Shown here in pieces: positions 3,887 through 34,470 of a stretch of DNA of 35,515 nt. The notes under the pieces are model-generated. The model saw only the letters and a list, made by a program, of their open reading frames with translations, made no database searches and was not told the origin of the DNA. Position 1 is the stretch's first letter; every line of letters begins with the position of its first letter. The position numbers and the translations under genes are program-made. Origin of the DNA: an uncultured bacterium. GTDB lineage: Bacteria; Patescibacteriota; Minisyncoccia; Phycocordibacterales; PALSA-1337. Location of the stretch: assembly GCA_903842025.1 (NCBI GenBank), contig CAIMKX010000006.1, positions 1 through 35,515 of the forward strand, in the 5' to 3' direction.

Positions 3887-5572
3887 TTAATTTATGGTAA
3901 AACCATAGTCGCTGTCATCACCGCTTGCATTACCAAAGTTATCTTTTTCGATAAGGACGAAGATAAGATACTCATTATTTGGGCTAATTACAGTGGATTT
4001 GCTAACCGTCCATTCGTATTCACCTTTATCTAGAGCACTTCCGGTAATTTTGGCAATATCCGCGAAGGAATTTGGGTTCGGAGTACAGCTATAGCCATAC
4101 GGGCATCGGGCATTGCTTAGTAATTTTATCGTTGCGGATGTAGGTTTTTCGCCAATACTTGACCATTTAATAGTAATTTTGTCGCCAGTTCTTAGTTTCT
4201 CGCCACCGTTTGGCGAGACAAGCGTGACGAATGTTTGTCCTGGGACAATGGAGCGAGTATTGACTACAAAATAGTCGTCACTCGAATCAGAGGCGCTGAT
4301 TCCATCTTGCGTGGACAAAACGTTGATTTTGTATTGACCGCTTGTTATATCCGGATCCATTTTCCAATCGTAGCTTCCAGTATTCGGAACATTTGAGACA
4401 ATGATTCTGAAGCCGCCGTTTGACTTATTTGTTGCGACAATCTGAACATTAGAATTACCTAAGCCTGATGAATTCCATTTGATCGTCGCTATATTGTTTC
4501 TCCCGCCATTATTCAAGACTTCATTGCCGTTGGGATAGAGGACGTTTATTGAGGGATGTGCAGGAATAGGTTGCGATCCGGCAGAAGCAAATATCGTAAA
4601 TTGGCTGTCGCTATAGTCCATAATAGTGTTATCAGAAGAAGCGATCAGAATTTTGAATTTTCCAGGCGAAGCTTCCGATACGAATTCTGGAGGAATCGTC
4701 CATAAGGTTGATCCGCCAAAATTGGACATACTGCCGCCATTTAACGCCGTCGGTCCAATTACTTTGATGATGGTTCCATCCTTTGTGAGAGCAATGTAAC
4801 CAGGCGCATCCAGTTGAACATTTTTTGATGTCCATTTGATCTGGTATGTTCCGCCTTCCTGCCACATTTCTCCTCCGTTTGGTGACAAAACTGTTATTGT
4901 AGACTTTACCGGAACTTGAGTGATTGCCTGTTGCTTAATCTTCAGAGATGTCAAAATCCTCGACAATACATCGCCGGCTTGATTCGGCGTTATTATGCCA
5001 GGAAGACTAAGATAAGTCTGGTGATCTCCGATAATCGGCTCAAATTCGGTTATAATTGCGCTATCAATAATTAAAGTTCTTGTCGGAGAAATTGTCAGAT
5101 AGTAAACAACTGATCCGCACCTTTCGATTCCATTCATGATCTTGTATCCGCTCCAGGAGCCGAGCTTATAAGGATTGGCCGAAACGTAGTTCCAACCAGG
5201 ATAATCGCTGCTTTGCACGAAGTCCTTTAAGTTTTGATCGACGATCTTAATCGAAACGTCAAAGTCCGAAAGCTTTTGTAATTGTGGCGCGTCACCTATG
5301 AAATCACACGGGTCCGGATGTTTGTAGGCAATTGAGTGGCTGAGAGAAATAGTTTCCCCGGCCTTTTTTACTGAAATCAAAGGCGAATAATCAAATGAAA
5401 GGTAAGCATCAGAATAGTTTTTCCAATCAGATACGCTTATCGGCTGTTCAACCTGACCAGTGGGTGCTTTTGCTTGCTTGAGATTGTAAATATAAACACC
5501 TCCGCCAATGACCAGAACCGCGATAATTGCTAATAATAGTGGCACAACGAAACCTTTTTGAGAATTTTTCAT
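3887..5572 (-). CDS. Membrane-anchored surface protein with three KNH/Ig-like repeats
   Basis: A 561-residue protein with one N-terminal membrane helix (residues ~7-30, GFVVPLLLAIIAVLVIGGG) that also resembles a type IV pilin-like leader because of the KGF junction, but lacks the Glu at +5. Residues ~45-212 form a domain I do not recognise. Then come three repeats starting near 226, 343 and 451, each opening with SPNGGE or YPNGNE and followed 12-18 residues later by KWTS, KWNS or KWSS. This pattern is typical of the Kre9/KNH-like Ser-Thr-rich family of extracellular beta-sandwich domains. The role is probably adhesion or structure at the cell surface. A TATAGT box sits eight bases before the ATG. 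The downstream neighbour is convergent prfA. Confidence 0.8.
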   Translation of the reverse strand: MKNSQKGFVVPLLLAIIAVLVIGGGVYIYNLKQAKAPTGQVEQPISVSDWKNYSDAYLSFDYSPLISVKKAGETISLSHSIAYKHPDPCDFIGDAPQLQKLSDFDVSIKIVDQNLKDFVQSSDYPGWNYVSANPYKLGSWSGYKIMNGIERCGSVVYYLTISPTRTLIIDSAIITEFEPIIGDHQTYLSLPGIITPNQAGDVLSRILTSLKIKQQAITQVPVKSTITVLSPNGGEMWQEGGTYQIKWTSKNVQLDAPGYIALTKDGTIIKVIGPTALNGGSMSNFGGSTLWTIPPEFVSEASPGKFKILIASSDNTIMDYSDSQFTIFASAGSQPIPAHPSINVLYPNGNEVLNNGGRNNIATIKWNSSGLGNSNVQIVATNKSNGGFRIIVSNVPNTGSYDWKMDPDITSGQYKINVLSTQDGISASDSSDDYFVVNTRSIVPGQTFVTLVSPNGGEKLRTGDKITIKWSSIGEKPTSATIKLLSNARCPYGYSCTPNPNSFADIAKITGSALDKGEYEWTVSKSTVISPNNEYLIFVLIEKDNFGNASGDDSDYGFTIN

Positions 5573-6582: not shown

Positions 6583-9500
6583 ATGAAAAAAACAACATAT
6601 TTGCGCGTCGCAATCCTGTGTTTGGTCATGGGACTTTTTGGTCTGGGGTTTGTGGTGAAGACGAAGGCGCAGAGTGTTTCATCTGCTAATCCATCATCGA
6701 TTTCCGTCAATTCCGTTCAATCCCTGACCGACACAATCGTCAGTGCAGTAAATGCGTCCAAAATTGGTAAAAGTTCGACTGCAAGCAATGATCTTGCTAC
6801 AACTCTCACTCCAATCATCCAACAGCGCAAACAAATGCTAATGGATCTGATCAAAAATGATCCGGCGGCTTTCCTGCGTTCTACTATTCCAAATGCAACC
6901 AGGAGCGCTTTGCCCTTGAGTTTGCAGAGTGATGTAGAAGTGCAGACTTCAGCCACTTCGTATTTGGAGGTTGTACACGAAGACAATTTTGCTCATCCTG
7001 AACAATCCAGATATCGATATTTCATAAATATAAAACAACGCGCAGGATTCTCGCTTTTGAGTCTTATAGGAGTTGGGGGTAATTCACAGCAAGATTCTGA
7101 AAGAGTTGAGATTTTTCCAACAAAACCGATAATGATGAGATCGGGTGCCCAGGTGAAAGTAAGCGGATATAAACTTGCTGGACTAATGGCTGTGGGTAAT
7201 GATGGTGATGCAGGATCGGGGATTCAAATTTTATCCGATGCGTCACAACCAGATGCTGTGGGTAACCAGAGAACATTGGTCCTACTTCTTAAAGAAAATG
7301 ATACTGATCCTGAACCTTTTACCGTCGCTCAGGCTCGAGATCTAGTTTTTAATGACCAATTTCAAAGTTTTATGAAAGAACAATCGTACGGAAAGGTTTC
7401 CTTTTCGGGAGATGTATATGGTTGGATATCGACAGGAGAAGTAATGGATACATGTTATTTATCTGAAAGAAATAAGCTTGGTGATCTGGCAGCAAAGTAC
7501 CAGTTTGATCTGATAAATTACGACAGGATAATATATTTGCTGAATGTTTCCGGTGGGGGTTGTTCGGTCGTTGGAAAACACATAATTTCTGTAAACAAAG
7601 TAAACTATAATATTTCAGATACCTCAGTGGCGGCTGTTAATTTCAATAGTCTTATGAATAATGGCCCGATGAGAGTTCTTCAAGCTGTGTTATCTCATGA
7701 AATAGGTCACAGTCTAGGTGTTCTTCATGCAAATGGTTGGAATTGTGGCAATGGTCAAATTTTATATGGTGACTGCCAGCACATAGAATATGCTAATCCG
7801 TTTGATGTTATGGGTACTTCTGGAACATATTCTTTTGATTATAATGCATATTTTAAGTATCAACTGGGATGGATACCTGATGATCAAATTCTGAAAATTG
7901 CTAAATCAGGAACCTATACTCTGAATCCGTTGGAATTAAAAGATGGTGTAAAACTTGCAGAGATTATGGCGCCTGATAACACGTCAGTTCTATATTCGCT
8001 CGAATTTAGAAAGGGTATAGGTTTTGATTTGAAGCTAAATGACAATAATTTGGCCATGAATCAAAAAGGAATTTTTATTAATCGCGTCAAAAATGATTAT
8101 GCACCGACAACAGAATTACTTGATATGAGTCCGACTCCTGGTGAATGCAGTGGCATTTTTCGAATCAATTGTTTATCTGATTCTCAAGATCAAGTCACTC
8201 TTAATCCTGCTTCTGACAACGTATCTGTTGATAGATTTGTTGATCCTGGTATTGGTATAAGCATTGGTCCAATTTTGAATTCATCCGCAAACTCTATTTC
8301 TTTTCAGGTCGATTTTTCTGAGACTGAATGTAAGCATAATCCGCCAGCTATTGGTTACAGTCTTGGTTTTGTACGCGTAGGCGCGGGCACTTCTAATGCA
8401 ATATCGTTATCTATAACAAATCAGGATTATAAGGTATGTGCAGGTAAGTCGGACTTTGTTTCAGTTACAAATACGTCAGATTCATTCCAATCTCACACTG
8501 ACAATATCATTCACACGTTATCGCCAGGGGAATCATACGGAACAATGTTGCATTTCAGCGTTCCTGAAGACACACTGTCTGATGAATATATATTGAGCCT
8601 CGACGTTCTTAATAGAACAACAGGTCTTAAGACAACGGCAAATATTCCCATAGAAGTGTCTTCGATTTTTATCGTAAAAAATATTGATCCAATTGAGGGA
8701 CCTGTTGGCACTGATGTTACGATTTCAGGCTTGGGTTTTGATAGAACGAAGAAAATTATTGTTAATTTTCAAAATTCTGATTCATGGGAGAAAGGATCGG
8801 CAAACATCACGGGTCAATGGATAAATAATTCGTTACATTTCAAGATACCAGAGAAAGTGTTGAATTGTTTTGGAGAATGTCGTGATATTTCAACGCCAGC
8901 AGGTTCATATTTGGTAATGTTATCACAATGTCCTACGGCTGATTCTTGTCTGCAAAGTAATAAAATATTGTTTACTGTCAGGAATCCGTATACTCCACCT
9001 GTTGTTAAAATACGTTCTTCGGAATTGAAAATGCTATACAACGAAAATAAGGAGGAAAACGCTCTCGTAAGTTCATTTTATCTTTCGATAAGTGCGGGAA
9101 GTGAAGACCAAAAGATTGCAAAAAGTTATGCTTTTATGACGCACTTACAGGATGATATGAATGCCTTTTATGTGAATAACGGTGTAACAAAATACACGAG
9201 ACGTACAAGCGGAGTTGACACAAACAATGATTATTTTATTATTCCTGCTGATACGACGGCGACATTTACGATTGATACAACCTTTGATCCGAAAAAATTA
9301 TTTGCCGGTAAATATTATGGAATATTAGATCAAGTCAAGTTCGGAGACGACTTAAAAAGTAATTGGATTGATATACCTCGAACGAGTACGACAAATGCTC
9401 TAGTAATCATCGGTGAACGTTCTCCTTACATCAATTCTATTTCGCCTAATCCCGTTGTATTAAATAAAACAATATCAATCAGCGGTGTTCGTTTCTCCAA

Positions 9501-10881
9501 AGATCAGCCTAGTACTCTTTCCGTGAATCAGTACATAAACACATGTCCGGCTGGTTTTACCTGTCCTACAGTTAACGCTGTCAAAAAATTCAGCCTTGTC
9601 TCGACAGATGGCGTCTCTATTAGTTTCCTGCCAAAAGGTCTTGTTCCTGGTAAATATTTTCTTCAAGTCACTGATCCAAAGACAGGATCGAGCAATTACG
9701 CCAATTTTGAAATCATTGGCCCAGTCACATCACCGTTGTCTGGCGAAGAGGGATTGGATTCCGCAGATACAGGCTTCATGGGAAAAGTAATTCTAGGCGC
9801 CAAAAAGTCGTTCTCAAAGCTTGTCTCCACTGTTTCCACCCTAGTCGGTATTCCATTACCTTCTCCTTCACCAAGTTCTTCTCCAAAAGCCAGTTCATCC
9901 GCTTACCCGTCGGCCACTCCGAAGATATCTTCATCTCCAAGTCCTTCGTCTACAGTTTCTCCATCAACATCACCGCAACCAAGCAATTCACTTAGCCCTA
10001 CGACCAGTTCAAGTCCAAAGCCGTCAACATCTGCAACACCATCAAGTTCAATGACTCCAAATACATCGGTTACGCCTTCTCCAACAACTTCTGCGACACC
10101 AAAACCTTCCGCAAGTGCGTCTCCTTCAGTTTCGGCTTCACCAAGTCCTTCATCATCCGTCAAACCATCTTCAAGCCCTTCGGTTTCGCCGACACCTTCT
10201 CCAAGCTCGTCTGCATCAGCAACGCCAAGTCCTTCCGCCAGCGCAACATCGCATCCTTCTTCAACTCCCACACCTTCAGTAACACCAAGCAGTTCGCCAA
10301 GTCCTACACCAAGCCCAACGCCGTCAAATGTTTCTTACCAAACCCCTACACCAAGCGCCACGCCGACATATTCGGTAACTCCGACTCCTTCATCCTATTC
10401 GACGCCTTCCGCTAGTCCAACCCCTTCAGCTTCACCAACGGCGGCATCTCAAACAGTCACAACTCTCTCAGCCACTCCTTTCCAGTATTCCGCCATATTG
10501 AACGGTGTCGTCAGTTCAGCGACCAACTTGGTCCAGAGAGGTTTCTACATTAGAGTCAGCACAGCTCCGAATTACGGAGGTGATATTGGCACGGTCTTTA
10601 CTTCTTCGACGGGGAACTTCAGTTACACTGTGAATGGTCTAAACTGCGGCACAGCCTACTATTACAGAGCCTATATGATCACCGGTGTCTACAATCCGAG
10701 CACCAACAGCACCTGGTATCCGGCTAACGACGTTCTATTCAACACCTTGCCATGTCCTTCAGCTTCACCGAGCGCTTCAGCCAGTCCGTCCGGAAGCCCG
10801 AGCGCTTTTGCGGATCAGAATTCAATTGCCTCGGTGTTTCAGATCTTTGGAAGAGTCATTGATTCGTTGTTCGGGAGATAG
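6583..10881 (+). CDS. Large secreted metzincin-type metalloprotease with TIG domains and Ser/Pro-rich tail
   Basis: A 1432-residue exported protein. A signal peptide (residues 1-~30, ending KTKAQS) precedes a zinc protease domain with HEIGHSLGVLH at residues 372-382 (zinc site HExxHxxGxxH), followed ~35 residues later by FDVMGTSG, which fits the metzincin Met-turn. A CARDB-like or NEW3-like region (~600-700) and two IPT/TIG-like domains (IDPIEGPVGTDVTISGLGF near 705; SISPNPVVLNKTISISGVRF near 950) follow. Residues 1062-1092 form a short amphipathic module shared with the 11813 gene. Residues ~1092-1297 are almost entirely Ser, Pro, Thr and Ala. A Fn3-like domain and a second Ser/Pro stretch lead to a C-terminal tail (FADQNSIASVFQIFGR) also shared with 11813. 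Probable role: surface or secreted protease; the target is unknown. Confidence 0.85.
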   Translation: MKKTTYLRVAILCLVMGLFGLGFVVKTKAQSVSSANPSSISVNSVQSLTDTIVSAVNASKIGKSSTASNDLATTLTPIIQQRKQMLMDLIKNDPAAFLRSTIPNATRSALPLSLQSDVEVQTSATSYLEVVHEDNFAHPEQSRYRYFINIKQRAGFSLLSLIGVGGNSQQDSERVEIFPTKPIMMRSGAQVKVSGYKLAGLMAVGNDGDAGSGIQILSDASQPDAVGNQRTLVLLLKENDTDPEPFTVAQARDLVFNDQFQSFMKEQSYGKVSFSGDVYGWISTGEVMDTCYLSERNKLGDLAAKYQFDLINYDRIIYLLNVSGGGCSVVGKHIISVNKVNYNISDTSVAAVNFNSLMNNGPMRVLQAVLSHEIGHSLGVLHANGWNCGNGQILYGDCQHIEYANPFDVMGTSGTYSFDYNAYFKYQLGWIPDDQILKIAKSGTYTLNPLELKDGVKLAEIMAPDNTSVLYSLEFRKGIGFDLKLNDNNLAMNQKGIFINRVKNDYAPTTELLDMSPTPGECSGIFRINCLSDSQDQVTLNPASDNVSVDRFVDPGIGISIGPILNSSANSISFQVDFSETECKHNPPAIGYSLGFVRVGAGTSNAISLSITNQDYKVCAGKSDFVSVTNTSDSFQSHTDNIIHTLSPGESYGTMLHFSVPEDTLSDEYILSLDVLNRTTGLKTTANIPIEVSSIFIVKNIDPIEGPVGTDVTISGLGFDRTKKIIVNFQNSDSWEKGSANITGQWINNSLHFKIPEKVLNCFGECRDISTPAGSYLVMLSQCPTADSCLQSNKILFTVRNPYTPPVVKIRSSELKMLYNENKEENALVSSFYLSISAGSEDQKIAKSYAFMTHLQDDMNAFYVNNGVTKYTRRTSGVDTNNDYFIIPADTTATFTIDTTFDPKKLFAGKYYGILDQVKFGDDLKSNWIDIPRTSTTNALVIIGERSPYINSISPNPVVLNKTISISGVRFSKDQPSTLSVNQYINTCPAGFTCPTVNAVKKFSLVSTDGVSISFLPKGLVPGKYFLQVTDPKTGSSNYANFEIIGPVTSPLSGEEGLDSADTGFMGKVILGAKKSFSKLVSTVSTLVGIPLPSPSPSSSPKASSSAYPSATPKISSSPSPSSTVSPSTSPQPSNSLSPTTSSSPKPSTSATPSSSMTPNTSVTPSPTTSATPKPSASASPSVSASPSPSSSVKPSSSPSVSPTPSPSSSASATPSPSASATSHPSSTPTPSVTPSSSPSPTPSPTPSNVSYQTPTPSATPTYSVTPTPSSYSTPSASPTPSASPTAASQTVTTLSATPFQYSAILNGVVSSATNLVQRGFYIRVSTAPNYGGDIGTVFTSSTGNFSYTVNGLNCGTAYYYRAYMITGVYNPSTNSTWYPANDVLFNTLPCPSASPSASASPSGSPSAFADQNSIASVFQIFGRVIDSLFGR

Positions 10882-10907
10882 GGAAGTAAGATAATCCACA
10901 CGTCTAG

Positions 10908-10936
10908 TTGACATACGGTACGTTATCTGCTAGGTT
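10908..10936 (+). promoter_or_regulatory. Strong promoter for the candidate small RNA
   Basis: TTGACA (10908-10913), a 17-base spacer, then TAGGTT (10931-10936) preceded by TGC (extended -10). The same TTGACA-N14-TGCTAG arrangement occurs at 33400. No open reading frame of note follows, which points to an RNA product. Confidence 0.65.
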
Positions 10937-10942
10937 TATATC

Positions 10943-11079
10943 AGAAGTACGCAATAATAACTTACGAGGCGCTCCGATGTTCCCTCAGAATATCTGGGGC
11001 TTGAGTTGGAGAGCACCACCTTGTGAGACGCTACTTCTAACAAAGAATCCCTTCCAATTCGGTCAGGGATTTTTTGTTT
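10943..11079 (+). ncRNA. Candidate stand-alone structured RNA (~135 nt), function unknown
   Basis: The region is bounded by an extended -10 promoter and an intrinsic terminator and has no convincing ORF. It can fold into a rod: AGAAGTA (near 10945) pairs with TACTTCT (near 11033), GGCGCTCC (near 10970) with GGAGAGCACC (near 11010), and CCTCAG with CTGGGG across a five-base loop. Large internal loops lie between the first two stems. The overall shape, a closed rod with a central bulge, recalls 6S RNA but the RNA is short. Part of it (AGTTGGAGAGCACCACCTTG) also resembles a tRNA D-arm. I cannot assign a family. Confidence 0.45.
11046..11079 (+). terminator. Intrinsic terminator of the small RNA
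   Basis: AATCCCT (11046-11052) and AGGGATT (11065-11071) form a seven-base-pair stem followed by TTTTTGTTT. It lies directly beyond the stop of the convergent DUF3800 gene and has a weaker T-rich side on the other strand. Confidence 0.85.
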
Positions 11080-11740
11080 ACATGAAAGTCTCTTCGTTAA
11101 ATAACTCCTTACCTTCACCCATAATGTTACCCTTTAAAATCTTGAAACATTCTTCTCCAAGTTTTCCTTTTTCAAGGTATTGAGCCAGGGCACCAGCGAT
11201 CCAGTCTGCTATCTGAATATTAACAACCGCGGTTGAATCAACCATTTCGATTTGTATTACTGTATTTTTAGGCAATCCTGGAAGAAGTCGTGCCTTAAGA
11301 ATTTCCTTGAATTCAGTTTCAGACATGCCACTCAATTTCCTACGATCACAGAAAACACGAAATTCGCTATCAATTATTGGTAAATATGATGCTAATATTT
11401 CGCCGACAATATTTGTATACAAAAGCCCGCTTTGAAGTATATTTTTATGACGATAACCTGCAGGAATATTTCGATGAAGCAAATAGGCAAATCGGATTCG
11501 CACATCCAGTTTTGAAATCTCTCGCAAGGTATTTAATCGCAACGCATCGGAAAATCCAGTACTCGCCCATTTGATCTCACTCAAATCACGCATTTTCCTA
11601 GGAAAATGACCTCGAAGCCACGCTCTGAATCCCTTTGCTGTTCTGCGTTGTTCGCCTATGGTAAATGATGCGACAACGAAATAGTTTTCGTGACTGTGGC
11701 TCGAGAATTGTCCGCTTTCATCAAGAAAAATATGTGGCAT
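11078..11740 (-). CDS. DUF3800 domain protein
   Basis: A 220-residue cytosolic protein. It opens with MPHIFLDESGQFSS, the DESG motif typical of DUF3800, and has FRVFCDRRKLSG in the middle and IQIADWIAGALAQY near residue 180, which carries the conserved Asp of the family. DUF3800 is thought to have an RNase H-like fold with acidic metal-binding residues, and members occur near mobile or defence genes; no activity is established here. The ATG is preceded by a TATATT box six bases upstream. It is divergent from the 11813 gene and convergent with the small RNA. Confidence 0.82.
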   Translation of the reverse strand: MPHIFLDESGQFSSHSHENYFVVASFTIGEQRRTAKGFRAWLRGHFPRKMRDLSEIKWASTGFSDALRLNTLREISKLDVRIRFAYLLHRNIPAGYRHKNILQSGLLYTNIVGEILASYLPIIDSEFRVFCDRRKLSGMSETEFKEILKARLLPGLPKNTVIQIEMVDSTAVVNIQIADWIAGALAQYLEKGKLGEECFKILKGNIMGEGKELFNEETFM

Positions 11741-11812
11741 ACAGCGAATATACTATCGCAATACATGCAAAAATGAAAACTGTGATATAATTACGCCGAA
11801 CGTCTCATATCC

Positions 11813-13258
11813 ATGAAAAACAAGCCGTCTATTTTACTGGCAACACTGCTTCTAATTCTCACTAGTTTTGGCAGTGTCAAAGCCTTGACGAATAATGGTT
11901 TGGCGACATCGGTTGCCGGTTCCCAAACAGGCGATGTGGTCATCTCAGTGATTCCGCTAAGCGGTAAAGTCATATCAGGTCAATCCGCAACATTGAATTA
12001 TTCAATACCGGATGGCGCGGCTTCGGCCAAATTGTCCTTGTATTGTCCGGATGGCGTCAGCTCAAAAGGCGGCACGGTTATTACAAATTCATGCAACAAT
12101 ACCGATTCATTTCCGACCATTCCGGAAAGCAGCAAAATATTCCTGACAAATGCCAAAGATTGGCCGCAGTATGTTGTGGCCACTTTGTTTGTGACTTTCA
12201 AGACTGATCCGGCCAATCCAGTTCAAGTAAGTACGCAGATTGCGGTCTTGCCGCCAACCGCCGAAGGTTCTTCGGCACCGACCGATATTGCCGACGGTTC
12301 AATGGGCATTACCGCGTCCGATTCCGGTATCTTGAGCCAGGTGATGTCCGGAATAACTTCAGCCTTCAGGTCAGTCGTTAACGGCACGACCGATATTCTT
12401 TTCCCTAGCCTGTCTTCCAATCCGACCGTGACTCTGACGGTTGACGGAGGCCATGAGCACAACTATAAAGTCGGAGAATCCATAAAATATTCCTGGTCAG
12501 CTAGCAATGCCAACGATTATTCGTTCGTCTTGACGTCCAATAATCCCGACAAATGCGGAGCGGGTACCTGGACTCCGGAACAGTTGAGCGGCACCTTTAA
12601 TGGTACAGTTTACGAGATTGATAATGGTTGTGTCTGGAATATTACCTACAAGGCGACCAATAGCAGTAATGGCCGAACGGCTTCCGATAGCGTCAAGCTG
12701 AGCGTCGGTAATATTACCCCTTACACAATTATCGACACCAATACGAACAACAGTTTTTCCGGCCAGAATGGTTCGTCGCAGGGCAATTCGAACTCCGGCG
12801 GCTCCAATTCCGGTTCCGGATTCAGCTCAGGTGGTTCTTCCGAGTCTTCAGTCAATTCATCGCCTTCGCCTTCCATTAGACCTATTTCATCCCCTTACAA
12901 GTCTCCGAGTCCTTCGCCTTCGAGGTCAGCCAGCCCAAGTCCAAGCGTAACAGTCAAACCATCGCCTTCGGTGTCCCCGTCGGTCAGTCCGAGAGCCACG
13001 TATTATCCGACGCCAACCGTCAGTTCGAGTCCGAAACCTTCATCTTCAGTGATTGCCAATCCGACCATAACACCGGTAAATACAAACACTCCGACTCCTT
13101 CAGTCTCAGCGACCCCTAGCTCTTCGAATTTTTCAACGCCGACGCCATCTGCTAGTCCATCTCCGTCATCGAGCCCGGTCAGCCAGTTTGGTCAGGATTC
13201 AACTGCGACAATATTCAACGCTATCGTCATTGTTCTCAAGATATTAGGAGGGTTGTAG
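11813..13258 (+). CDS. Exported Ser/Pro-rich surface protein with Ig-like domains
   Basis: A 481-residue protein with a signal peptide (residues 1-~25, ending VKA). An Ig-like domain follows (ISVIPLSGKVISGQSATLNY, ~residues 45-145), then an amphipathic module at 170-203 (DSGILSQVMSGITSAF). A second beta-rich domain (VTLTVDGGHEHNYKVGESIK, ~203-300) has paired Cys residues. Gly/Ser-rich and then Ser/Pro-rich linkers run from ~310 to 455, and the C-terminal tail is FGQDSTATIFNAIVIVLKI. The 170-203 module and the tail both align with the protease at 6583, so the two probably use the same sorting or assembly route. TATAAT at 11786-11791 with TG in front acts as an extended -10; the leader is about 14 bases. 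No enzyme motif is seen. Confidence 0.8.
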   Translation: MKNKPSILLATLLLILTSFGSVKALTNNGLATSVAGSQTGDVVISVIPLSGKVISGQSATLNYSIPDGAASAKLSLYCPDGVSSKGGTVITNSCNNTDSFPTIPESSKIFLTNAKDWPQYVVATLFVTFKTDPANPVQVSTQIAVLPPTAEGSSAPTDIADGSMGITASDSGILSQVMSGITSAFRSVVNGTTDILFPSLSSNPTVTLTVDGGHEHNYKVGESIKYSWSASNANDYSFVLTSNNPDKCGAGTWTPEQLSGTFNGTVYEIDNGCVWNITYKATNSSNGRTASDSVKLSVGNITPYTIIDTNTNNSFSGQNGSSQGNSNSGGSNSGSGFSSGGSSESSVNSSPSPSIRPISSPYKSPSPSPSRSASPSPSVTVKPSPSVSPSVSPRATYYPTPTVSSSPKPSSSVIANPTITPVNTNTPTPSVSATPSSSNFSTPTPSASPSPSSSPVSQFGQDSTATIFNAIVIVLKILGGL

Positions 13259-18312: not shown

Positions 18313-20337
18313 ATGAAAAAGCGTGTTCTCTTCGCACTAGTTTTTACAGCCTTGGCATTACCGACAGTCACTTCGGCCCAATGCCCGAGCGATTCCCGAG
18401 ATCTGGCGACTCACGTCTCCAATCAGATAGACAATCGGATAAGCGGCCAAGACCCTTCAATTGTTTTGTCTATATACGCGACGAGAAGCAGTGTTCCCTG
18501 GATAAGGAAAACTGATTCATGGACGGAAAGAATATCGCCGATCGATTTTACAGGAGTTGCCGGTTACAACGACGATCTATCCAATCATTTTGGCAATGGG
18601 CTTATGGGGGGGGCGACTCTAATTACGCCCAGGCATTATGTGACAGCTGAACATTTCAAATTGGCAAACGGCACTAGCGTTTCATTCATGGACAAAAGCG
18701 GCAATCCGGTTATCAGGAAAGTCGTCAATTCGGCCAATATTCCCGGCACTGACATTAACATTGGCCTGCTTGATTCAGACGTCGACAGTTCCATTACATA
18801 TTACCAACTTGTAAGTTCATCGGCTTTGCAGGGAATGCTCCAAAAGACCGTCGCTGAAGTCATCGATGTGCCGATCGTTTTGTTCAATCAATCCGGTCAA
18901 GCGGTAATACATTCCCTGAGCACTATTTCAAATGAAATTGAGCACCGGTTGTATGTCGCCGGACCGCGCGCGGCCTTTAGCCGGGATTTGACCGGCGGCG
19001 ATTCCGGTCAGCCGGCCTTTCTCATAATCAACGGCAAGCCTATCCTTCTTTTCACCAACCATTCAATGAATGCAGGTCCGAATCTGGGTTTTTACATCGC
19101 TCAAATCAACCAGGCCATTGATTCGTTGGGAGATAGTGGAGGTTATCATGTCAGTCGCTACAACACGTCATGTTTTGATCAATCGACGCTTCTTTCACCG
19201 TCCACAATGACCTCGGCGCCGGGCAATTTCAAGAGCTGTTTTACGGGAAGCGCCAAAGATCAGGTCAAGCTTTCTTGGACTCCGCCTTCGGACACTCCTG
19301 ACAGATATGCTCTTTCAGTCGATAATACGGCCTACATGTCCGTTCCTTCATCGGCGCGGGAATATGTTCATGCATCCGTCGCTCCAGGAAGCGGCCACTC
19401 CTACACTCTATTTGCTCTGCGTGCCGGCTATAACTCCTCCCAGGCCCAAAGGACCGATCTTTCCAACGCGCAGATCTGCGCCTCGGTGGAGATTCAACCG
19501 ACACCAGCCATGGCAGAGCCGACACCATCGGGAAACTCGATACCAGCAATGACTCCAACTCCGCCGGTCAAGGAAGCGCCGACCCCGACCGCTTCTCCGG
19601 TTATTCACAATCCTCCACCAGCATCCGGCGCGACAAATTCGCAGAACACGAATTCATCCCAGACTTCTCCGACTCCGACGGCGACTGCTGCCGCGAAAAG
19701 CGCCAGCCAGACAAATACGGCAACTCAAACTCAGAATAATAATGCCGGCTCTGGCGGGAATGGTGGTTCATACTCAAGTGGTCAATCAGTATCCGGCTCT
19801 TCCTACAGTTCCGGATCCATCATAACCTATCGTCAGGTTCAAAACGCCTCGTCGGGATCTTCCGTCAATAAACAATCCAATACGCAAACAACAATAGTCA
19901 AGCAGACCTCATTTGTCTCGCAGATTAGTCGCAATCTCAAGCTTAATGACGTGGGCAATGATGTTCGTTCGCTTCAAGTGATTTTGAATAATCTCGGATA
20001 TACGGTTGCCGAGTCGGGGCCTGGCTCTGTTGGACAAGAAACGACCACTTTTAACGATGCGACCAAAAAGGCTCTGGAAAGATATCAGGCTGATCGGGTG
20101 AATGTAGGACTTAAGATAACGGGCGTTTTGGACAATGTGACTCTCATTCTAATTAACAGCGATATTGCCAATAAGTTGTCGGAGGCCAAGGCGGCTCAGG
20201 CAGTCATCGCGAATAACATTTCGAACGCCAACAGTCAGAATAATTCCGTCTACGAATTTGTCGTTGATATTATTAGGAGAATTATAAACGGAATGGGAAT
20301 GACGATCAGTAATATCCTGCTCATTTTGCGCTTATGA
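18313..20337 (+). CDS. Secreted trypsin-like serine protease with peptidoglycan-binding-like domain
   Basis: A 674-residue exported protein. A signal peptide (residues 1-~22, ending TSA) leads to a chymotrypsin-fold domain with the triad His114 (YVTAEHF), Asp147 (TDINIGLL) and Ser231 (GGDSGQP). A Fn3-like segment (~300-390) with VKLSWTPPSDTPDRY follows, then a long Pro/Thr/Ser/Gly/Asn-rich linker (~395-530). Residues ~537-605 (LNDVGNDVRSLQVILNNLGY) match the PG_binding_1 fold. The tail is hydrophobic (VYEFVVDIIRRIINGMG). TATAAT at 18300-18305 lies seven bases before the ATG, so the mRNA is leaderless. Probable role: wall-attached or shed protease; the substrate is unknown. Confidence 0.87.
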   Translation: MKKRVLFALVFTALALPTVTSAQCPSDSRDLATHVSNQIDNRISGQDPSIVLSIYATRSSVPWIRKTDSWTERISPIDFTGVAGYNDDLSNHFGNGLMGGATLITPRHYVTAEHFKLANGTSVSFMDKSGNPVIRKVVNSANIPGTDINIGLLDSDVDSSITYYQLVSSSALQGMLQKTVAEVIDVPIVLFNQSGQAVIHSLSTISNEIEHRLYVAGPRAAFSRDLTGGDSGQPAFLIINGKPILLFTNHSMNAGPNLGFYIAQINQAIDSLGDSGGYHVSRYNTSCFDQSTLLSPSTMTSAPGNFKSCFTGSAKDQVKLSWTPPSDTPDRYALSVDNTAYMSVPSSAREYVHASVAPGSGHSYTLFALRAGYNSSQAQRTDLSNAQICASVEIQPTPAMAEPTPSGNSIPAMTPTPPVKEAPTPTASPVIHNPPPASGATNSQNTNSSQTSPTPTATAAAKSASQTNTATQTQNNNAGSGGNGGSYSSGQSVSGSSYSSGSIITYRQVQNASSGSSVNKQSNTQTTIVKQTSFVSQISRNLKLNDVGNDVRSLQVILNNLGYTVAESGPGSVGQETTTFNDATKKALERYQADRVNVGLKITGVLDNVTLILINSDIANKLSEAKAAQAVIANNISNANSQNNSVYEFVVDIIRRIINGMGMTISNILLILRL

Positions 20338-33528: not shown

Positions 33529-34470
33529 ATGAAAAAGATTACGTTAACGCTGCCCTTGGTTCTCGGTTTGATTGTCACGTCGACTGCCTGGGCCCTGCCC
33601 GAAACGCCTCAAACGACGGATTCGGTTTCGGCCAAAGCCGGTCCGATTCATCGGACTGCTCAGATCGACAATTCGACTGCCAAAGTCGCGACCGACGTTC
33701 AAATCGGAATGAAAATTGTTCTGTTGCCGGAGCTGTCGTCGCCTGATTTCCCGGCGGCATCCGCGGCGCTCATCAGTGACGCCAAAAACGGCGCCATCCA
33801 GTCCAGTACGTTCTACACGGTTGTCTCAGGTGGTGGCAAGGTTGCCATCAGCAACTTGGTGGTGTACGGCAGTAATCGAGTTGTCTGGCAGTTTATCGAT
33901 GCCACTTCGCCGTCGGGGGGCGTATCCCTCGATATGTTGGCGGTGAACTCGGTGAGTTCGCCTAACAGCATCTTAAATGATACCTATACCTTTGCGGGTA
34001 TGGAGTTATCACCGGGCGCCGTGGTAAAAAACGGCGATAGCTGGATGTCGAGTGGTTCGGTGTCACAGAAGGGTACCAGAGCGATGTCTCTGGTCTGCAT
34101 GAAACTTATTTCCGGAGGAACAACGGCCAGCTCGCTTGATAATGCCTACAACTGGCTCGCTATGCAGAAAGGCTTCGAGGTGAAGTACGCCGTCCAAGTC
34201 AAGGGTGATCCCAGTACCAAAACCATCGCCGGTGTCGGACTTGACGGATTCACGCTTCCAGCAGTCACGGCGGCCAAGCTGTCTATCACGCGAAACGCCG
34301 ATGCCACCGCCAATATCGCAGTTGCCGGTGACGTCAGCGGATTGTACAGTATTCAGTTTTCGAAGGATGCAAGAGGTCCTTACACTGAAGTCAAAGCGGT
34401 AACTGGCGGAAACACCTTCGCCATTCCGACGACCGAGTCCGGCTTTTACCGGGCGATCGTGAAGCAATAG
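33529..34470 (+). CDS. Exported protein of unknown function
   Basis: A 313-residue protein with a signal peptide (MKKITLTLPLVLGLIVTSTA, cut after WALP or nearby). The mature part is beta-rich and low in Cys, with SGGGKVAISNLVVYGSN near residue 100, a middle segment NDTYTFAGMELSPGAVVKNG and a C-terminal SITRNADATANIAVAGDVSG domain that may be Fn3-like. No enzyme motif is seen. It has its own strong promoter, a long leader with a Shine-Dalgarno sequence, and a strong terminator. Codon use is more GC-rich than the nearby surface genes, which may indicate transfer or high expression. Confidence 0.75.
   Translation: MKKITLTLPLVLGLIVTSTAWALPETPQTTDSVSAKAGPIHRTAQIDNSTAKVATDVQIGMKIVLLPELSSPDFPAASAALISDAKNGAIQSSTFYTVVSGGGKVAISNLVVYGSNRVVWQFIDATSPSGGVSLDMLAVNSVSSPNSILNDTYTFAGMELSPGAVVKNGDSWMSSGSVSQKGTRAMSLVCMKLISGGTTASSLDNAYNWLAMQKGFEVKYAVQVKGDPSTKTIAGVGLDGFTLPAVTAAKLSITRNADATANIAVAGDVSGLYSIQFSKDARGPYTEVKAVTGGNTFAIPTTESGFYRAIVKQ

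Follow-up and report, generated by a model that had tools for sequence, protein, structure and literature searches.

The window analysed here is a stretch of 35,515 nucleotides, contig C6 of a genome of 949,867 bases (~0.95 Mb, 56 contigs, 99% complete) that comes from a relative of Candidatus Taylorbacteria in a family of tiny, host-dependent bacteria. Its forward strand encodes three exported proteins that are considered below under the positions of their first bases. The 6583 protein (6583–10881) is a metalloprotease with the motif HEIGHSLGVLH and weak matches to M6 and reprolysin-like families. It has a signal peptide (6583–6669, predicted cut VKTKA^Q), TIG-like domains, an internal amphipathic helix FMGKVILGAKKSFSKLVSTVSTLVG (9775–9849; helical moment p = 0.004) that precedes a Ser/Pro linker, an Fn3-like domain, and a C-terminal tail NSIASVFQIFGRVIDSLFGR (10819–10878). 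The 11813 protein (11813–13258) is Ig-like and has a signal peptide (11813–11884, predicted cut SVKA^L), an internal amphipathic helix SGILSQVMSGITSAFRSVV (12323–12379), an Ig-like domain (12404–12706), a Ser/Pro linker, and a C-terminal tail STATIFNAIVIVLKILGGL (13199–13255). The 18313 protein (18313–20337) is protease-like, contains a PG_binding_1 domain, and ends in a hydrophobic helix after a linker. Signal peptides were assigned by simple rules, and the cut sites of the 6583 and 11813 proteins by eye from the sequence.

The Ig-like domain of the 11813 protein is homologous to the final domain of L292, a protein from another species of the same genus (BLASTP, 36% over 101 aa, E = 9e-20) that itself bears the tail and ends in a Ser/Pro linker and LNASIWDAVRQYFDSMAR at the stop codon. 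A single-sequence structure model of the 11813 protein, with a mean pLDDT of 38 and usable for helix assignment only, places helices at residues 171–189 and 461–480, corresponding to the internal helix and the tail, with Ig strands and coil between them.

Internal amphipathic helices

The original prediction held that the 6583 and 11813 proteins share both an internal amphipathic module and a C-terminal tail, and all the strings that it quoted are present where it had placed them. The internal module stood for one pair of proteins and not for the other. The best match of the 6583 helix (FMGKVILGAKKSFSKLVS) in the proteome is the helix FLVNIVTGAEKTYKEIRS of a protease encoded on contig 24, which lies directly before a Ser/Pro linker as in the 6583 protein, and none of 1024 other proteins equals it. 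The internal 16-mers of the 6583 and 11813 proteins gave a shuffle p of 5e-4, uncorrected for their having been picked, and an equally good 18-mer occurs in 40–49 of 1024 other proteins, so that this match is not above background. The proteases on contigs 1 and 31 have an internal pair of their own (SFFQK...) at the same place. Related proteases, whose records belong to Candidatus Taylorbacteria and other Paceibacteria, also carry amphipathic helices there, adjoining or within an IPT domain. Because of these two pairs and the helices in relatives, we regard the internal helix as a recurrent theme whose sequence appears to be common only within subsets, with the 11813 protein outside them by this test. 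A profile of the relatives' helices (...VAAVAGAPSS) recovered neither window protein from this proteome.

In four relatives (L168, L174, L175, and L191), the region after the catalytic part contains an amphipathic helix with a signal-peptidase-like site directly after it (AHG^Q, THG^Q, ASA^Q, and VDA^Q), as if the chain were cut internally. The sites suggestive of such processing read FSFKKASAQ, NLIPYTHGQ, FIPVAHGQ, and GVVDAQ. An internal processing signal composed of a helix and a site of the AxA^Q type was rejected for the present genome, in which such sites are not enriched after amphipathic helices.

The C-terminal tail in the genome and the lineage

Open reading frames were called on all 56 contigs by a simple longest-ORF rule, which gave 1027 ORFs. 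Taken alone, the tail pair of the 6583 and 11813 proteins that had been proposed is marginal (shuffle p = 0.023; rank 6–8 of 1026 C-termini), and it was the wider evidence that bore it out. Four further exported proteins end in comparable tails at the stop codon, namely an M64-like protease on contig 1 (NMTANIFEVFSRIFFPFIDF), the proteases on contigs 24 (NPMTSNIWDGLSALFWSFSF) and 31 (NQSLLGNIISAFWVPWVISR), and a protein on contig 38 (VQEAAVWTAVWKAVGEYYNSRQ). The contig-1 tail connects them: it scores 48 with the 6583 tail (p = 2e-4, the best of 1026 C-termini), 38 with the contig-24 tail (p = 4e-4), 31 with the contig-31 tail, and 29 with the 11813 tail (p = 0.002). An independent profile, a position matrix derived from tails outside this genome only, was run against the C-terminal 32 residues of each of the 1027 local ORFs. 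It ranked the contig-24, contig-1, and 11813 tails 1, 2, and 4, respectively, and the likewise exported proteins of contigs 42, 38, and 10 at 7, 8, and 10; the 6583 tail ranked 55. The Fn3-like domain preceding the 6583 tail is homologous to the domains that precede the contig-24 and contig-38 tails, which places this divergent sequence. Because of the contig-1 link, the independent ranks, and these last-domain homologies, we judge on sequence grounds that the tail is real and more widespread than the window alone could show. The 11813 tail clearly belongs to the family (E = 7e-4 with profile A6, in which it is itself a training row), and the 6583 tail is a divergent member, tied in through its contig-1 relative and its position.

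The 18313 protein had been credited with a looser version of the tail, a view that the sequences do not sustain: its C-terminus gave shuffle p > 0.1 against either the 6583 or the 11813 tail and ranked 208 of 1027 with the independent profile. It resembles the family physically without being a sequence member. When only physics was considered (hydrophobicity and helical moment near the stop codon, with a low-complexity stretch before), such C-termini were found in 12 of the 139 exported proteins of this genome and in none of its 192 cytosolic ones (p = 2e-5). The 12 include the 18313 protein and two that resemble ordinary membrane helices.

Other shared termini occur in the genome. Four exported proteins, encoded at 33529–34470 of the window and on contigs 24, 35, and 44, share a different C-terminus around FYR[AT] (FYRAIVKQ, FYRAIQR, FYRATPH, and FYRTVLLQ). 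Paralogues at 3887–5572 of the window and on contigs 30 and 51 have the N-terminal sequence MKNSQKGFVVPLLIAIIAVLVIGG in common, similar to a type IV pilin-like leader.

Beyond this genome, the motif [FM]-T-[AS]-x-[IV]-[WF]-[DN]-A-[LIVF]-[RK]-x-x-F occupies 14–20 residues at the stop codon, often behind a Ser/Pro linker; such linkers, whose constancy was among the checks suggested with the original prediction, are common and not obligatory. Many homologous M64-like proteases from other genomes end in it (NFTAAIINAVRLLGWFFNGQ, SFTASVWKAFLSMFGM, NMTSAIWDAIQAIGRYFAGQ, and SFTASIWDALSSILYAWKK, each at the stop codon). The passengers are unrelated and comprise M64-like metalloproteases and PG_binding_1, Ig/IPT, TIG, PKD, and DUF4214 proteins. 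Tail proteins whose N-terminus lies within the retrieved sequence all begin with either a signal peptide or a membrane segment, a point that the suggested checks had also raised. The tail is found at the C-terminus of exported proteins with unrelated bodies.

The first profile, built from five local tails, produced only chance matches in relatives, bar one internal copy; the successful profile began with C-termini read off homologous proteases. The same profile reversed served as the control in the genus and across the class. At E ≤ 0.01, the iterated profile gave 29 matches in 34 genomes of the genus and the reversed profile gave 0. In the family, 32 of 36 matches at this threshold adjoin the stop codon, the suggested check having been whether the tail always abuts the C-terminus; many of these matches are training sequences or near copies. 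At least one verified C-terminal tail is present in 20 of the 53 family genomes, leaving 33 with no verified tail. Of the matches that were not yet in the training alignment when they appeared, 19 are C-terminal, including cases from other genera, and eight lie off-terminal in frames of at least 100 aa. Because the profiles were iterated, later E-values lean on earlier finds, and the argument depends on how the independent profile ranks the local tails, on the control with the reversed profile, and on C-terminal cases that were new. The length of an apparent 24,293-codon frame in G477 is an artefact of a stretch running into masked N, and a match in G001 (contig C34) is noise from a 38-codon frame overlapping another reading frame.

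Across the class (286 genomes, almost all outside the family), the forward profile matched in 12 genomes, one of which is the present genome, and the reversed profile in 10, so matches beyond the family are at chance level. Isolated tails outside the family are found in L137, from another family of the order, and L165, which is labelled Nomurabacteria. The description of the tail as lineage-specific is thus supported, because the matches are strong in the genus and family and, over the class as a whole, no better than those of the reversed profile. We found no paper on such a C-terminal tail in a literature search.

Two further arrangements were observed. In one relative (L173; G017:C17:5132-18995), tail-bearing exported proteins, three M64-like and one peptidoglycan-binding, are encoded side by side. 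Three other proteins (L295, L298, and L314) have an N-terminal part in the cytoplasm and a single transmembrane helix, and carry the motif (SASVYDAV, SASVWDAV, and TASVFNAF) off the C-terminus, shortly past the membrane span on the outer side.

Structure and possible roles of the tail

The core over 28 aligned tails, a set that includes the G001 row later judged to be noise, is [NS]-[FM]-T-[AS]-[SAN]-[IV]-[WF]-[DN]-A-[LIVF]-[RK]-x-[LIF]-F, with position-specific conservation at T0, A1, W4, and D/N5. Helical moments exceed those of shuffled sequences (p < 0.05) for most tails, and positions 3, 4, 7, 10/11, and 14 form an amphipathic stripe. As a group the tails are too polar in composition to span a membrane: 1 of 35 is hydrophobic enough (KD 1.6 over 19 aa). 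A threonine N-cap and a hydrophobic staple are established elements of helix capping. The tail would accordingly be a self-capping helix, with T0 as the N-cap and a staple from [FM] at position −1 to [WF] at position 4. No model matched the tail region in Pfam (window and relatives' proteins) or in NCBIfam (four proteins of this genome).

Taken together, the sequences indicate a genuine C-terminal tag that exported proteins share within this patescibacterial family. The reading to which we give an even chance is that the self-capped amphipathic helix tethers its protein to the outer face of the membrane or to a partner in the envelope. The chain would be secreted by the Sec route, and its catalytic or Ig part would fold outside. 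A flexible, often Ser/Pro-rich linker would then hold the short helix at the extreme C-terminus, where it could dock either to the cytoplasmic membrane, on its outer face, or to an envelope protein at that site; the protein would thereby be kept at the cell surface and not lost. The binding target may be lipid or a protein receptor. Several tail proteins have a second amphipathic element, the internal helix that precedes the linker, which may add a contact. Retention is favoured because the tail is amphipathic and is carried on a flexible tether by many kinds of secreted proteins, because a two-transmembrane T4SS_pilin domain replaces it in some homologous proteases and provides a membrane anchor there, and because the off-terminal copies in L295, L298, and L314 sit just outside a membrane span. 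Against it, several homologous proteases (among them L174 and L176) have no tail altogether, the 6583 and contig-38 tails have diverged despite similar last domains, and anchoring would be redundant in those motif proteins that already have a transmembrane helix.

The conserved T0, A1, W4, and D5 exceed the needs of lipid binding, which points to a protein partner and against docking purely on lipid. They suggest, as the main rival to helix docking, that a lineage-specific sorting system of the Patescibacteria recognises the T-A-x-[IV]-W-D-A helix through an envelope receptor or processing enzyme and displays exported proteins at the surface. On this view, T-A-x-I-W-D-A would be the signal for a machine dedicated to sorting or secretion (type IV secretion, a type IV pilus, or a processing enzyme), which would read it much as sortases and exosortases read theirs. 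We consider this distinctly less probable: position-specific conservation despite variable passengers, the strictly C-terminal placement in most cases, and the fusion of related proteases to a T4SS pilin domain are consistent with it, whereas the tail has no tripartite build of motif, transmembrane helix, and basic cluster. A sortase was rejected as the partner; none was detected in the present genome or in tail-rich genomes such as G004, G011, and G022, which argues that the tail is not a sortase signal.

The original prediction spoke of sorting, anchoring, or polymerising; the first two are favoured here, with docking and retention as the inferred mechanism, and polymerising found no positive evidence. 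Self-association, in which the helices of several chains would pack and thereby polymerise or cluster the exported proteins, seems unlikely. The stripe would suit helix packing, and some proteins have two helices per chain, but the tail is short and aromatic-rich and lacks a long heptad pattern. Patescibacteria are largely episymbionts or predators, and their lifestyle, together with passengers that include proteases and wall-binding proteins, would agree with a released helix that inserts in a host or prey membrane and delivers the protease. This is very improbable to us, since the tail also occurs on non-enzymatic proteins and, in membrane proteins, at a site directly beyond the span on the outside. 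We hold it least probable of all that there is no shared module and that amphipathic helices simply resemble one another. The marginal scores of the exact pairs first proposed and the background level of the 11813 internal helix would fit, and ordinary resemblance appears to be the better view for that helix and for the 18313 tail only. For the tail family it is contradicted by the reversed-profile control, the independent ranking, and the C-terminal placement, as is the possibility, named with the prediction, that the similarity is no better than among random amphipathic helices.

Surface retention of exported enzymes and adhesins is poorly known in Patescibacteria, and a sortase match is absent from 24 of the 34 genus genomes. 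In these mostly uncultured organisms, a short recognisable tag would flag part of the surface proteome by sequence alone and would offer a concrete handle for finding its partner.

Comparison with known C-terminal signals

Like LPXTG, PEP-CTERM, GlyGly-CTERM, and MYXO-CTERM, the tail is a short C-terminal homology on unrelated signal-peptide proteins, occurs several times per genome, and is limited to certain lineages. Known C-terminal sorting signals are tripartite, consisting of a motif, a transmembrane helix, and a basic cluster (PMC3237569). In contrast to LPXTG, PEP-CTERM, and GlyGly-CTERM, no transmembrane helix follows the motif (only the single tail among 35 noted above is hydrophobic enough), and there is no basic cluster at the C-terminus (K/R within the last three residues in 17 of 35 tails). 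The motif lies within the helix, whereas motifs of the LPXTG/PEP-CTERM type precede it. The tail therefore does not appear to be of that type.

The helical amphipathicity of the tail is that of an in-plane anchor. In pestivirus Erns, an amphipathic C-terminal helix is both the membrane anchor and the retention signal of a secreted enzyme (PMC3937272). The tail differs in being much shorter and bacterial, in its position-specific conserved residues, and in its place behind a low-complexity linker, and no relationship is implied.

Peptidase_M64 (PF09471) describes the passenger only. Many tail proteins have catalytic domains with HExxH...DEY that match this family weakly, the contig-31 protease with E = 0.002 and 17.7 bits, below the cut-off of 26. 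Three M64-like exported proteases of Paceibacteria (L182:51-2174, L188:2901-9017, and L191:4233-7157) end in T4SS_pilin (PF18895), above the Pfam cut-off, so that a protease and a secretion-system pilin are joined in one chain. This two-transmembrane domain of about 70 aa is unrelated to the tail in sequence, but like the tail it stands at the C-terminus of homologous M64-like proteases, and it is probably a functional alternative to the tail.
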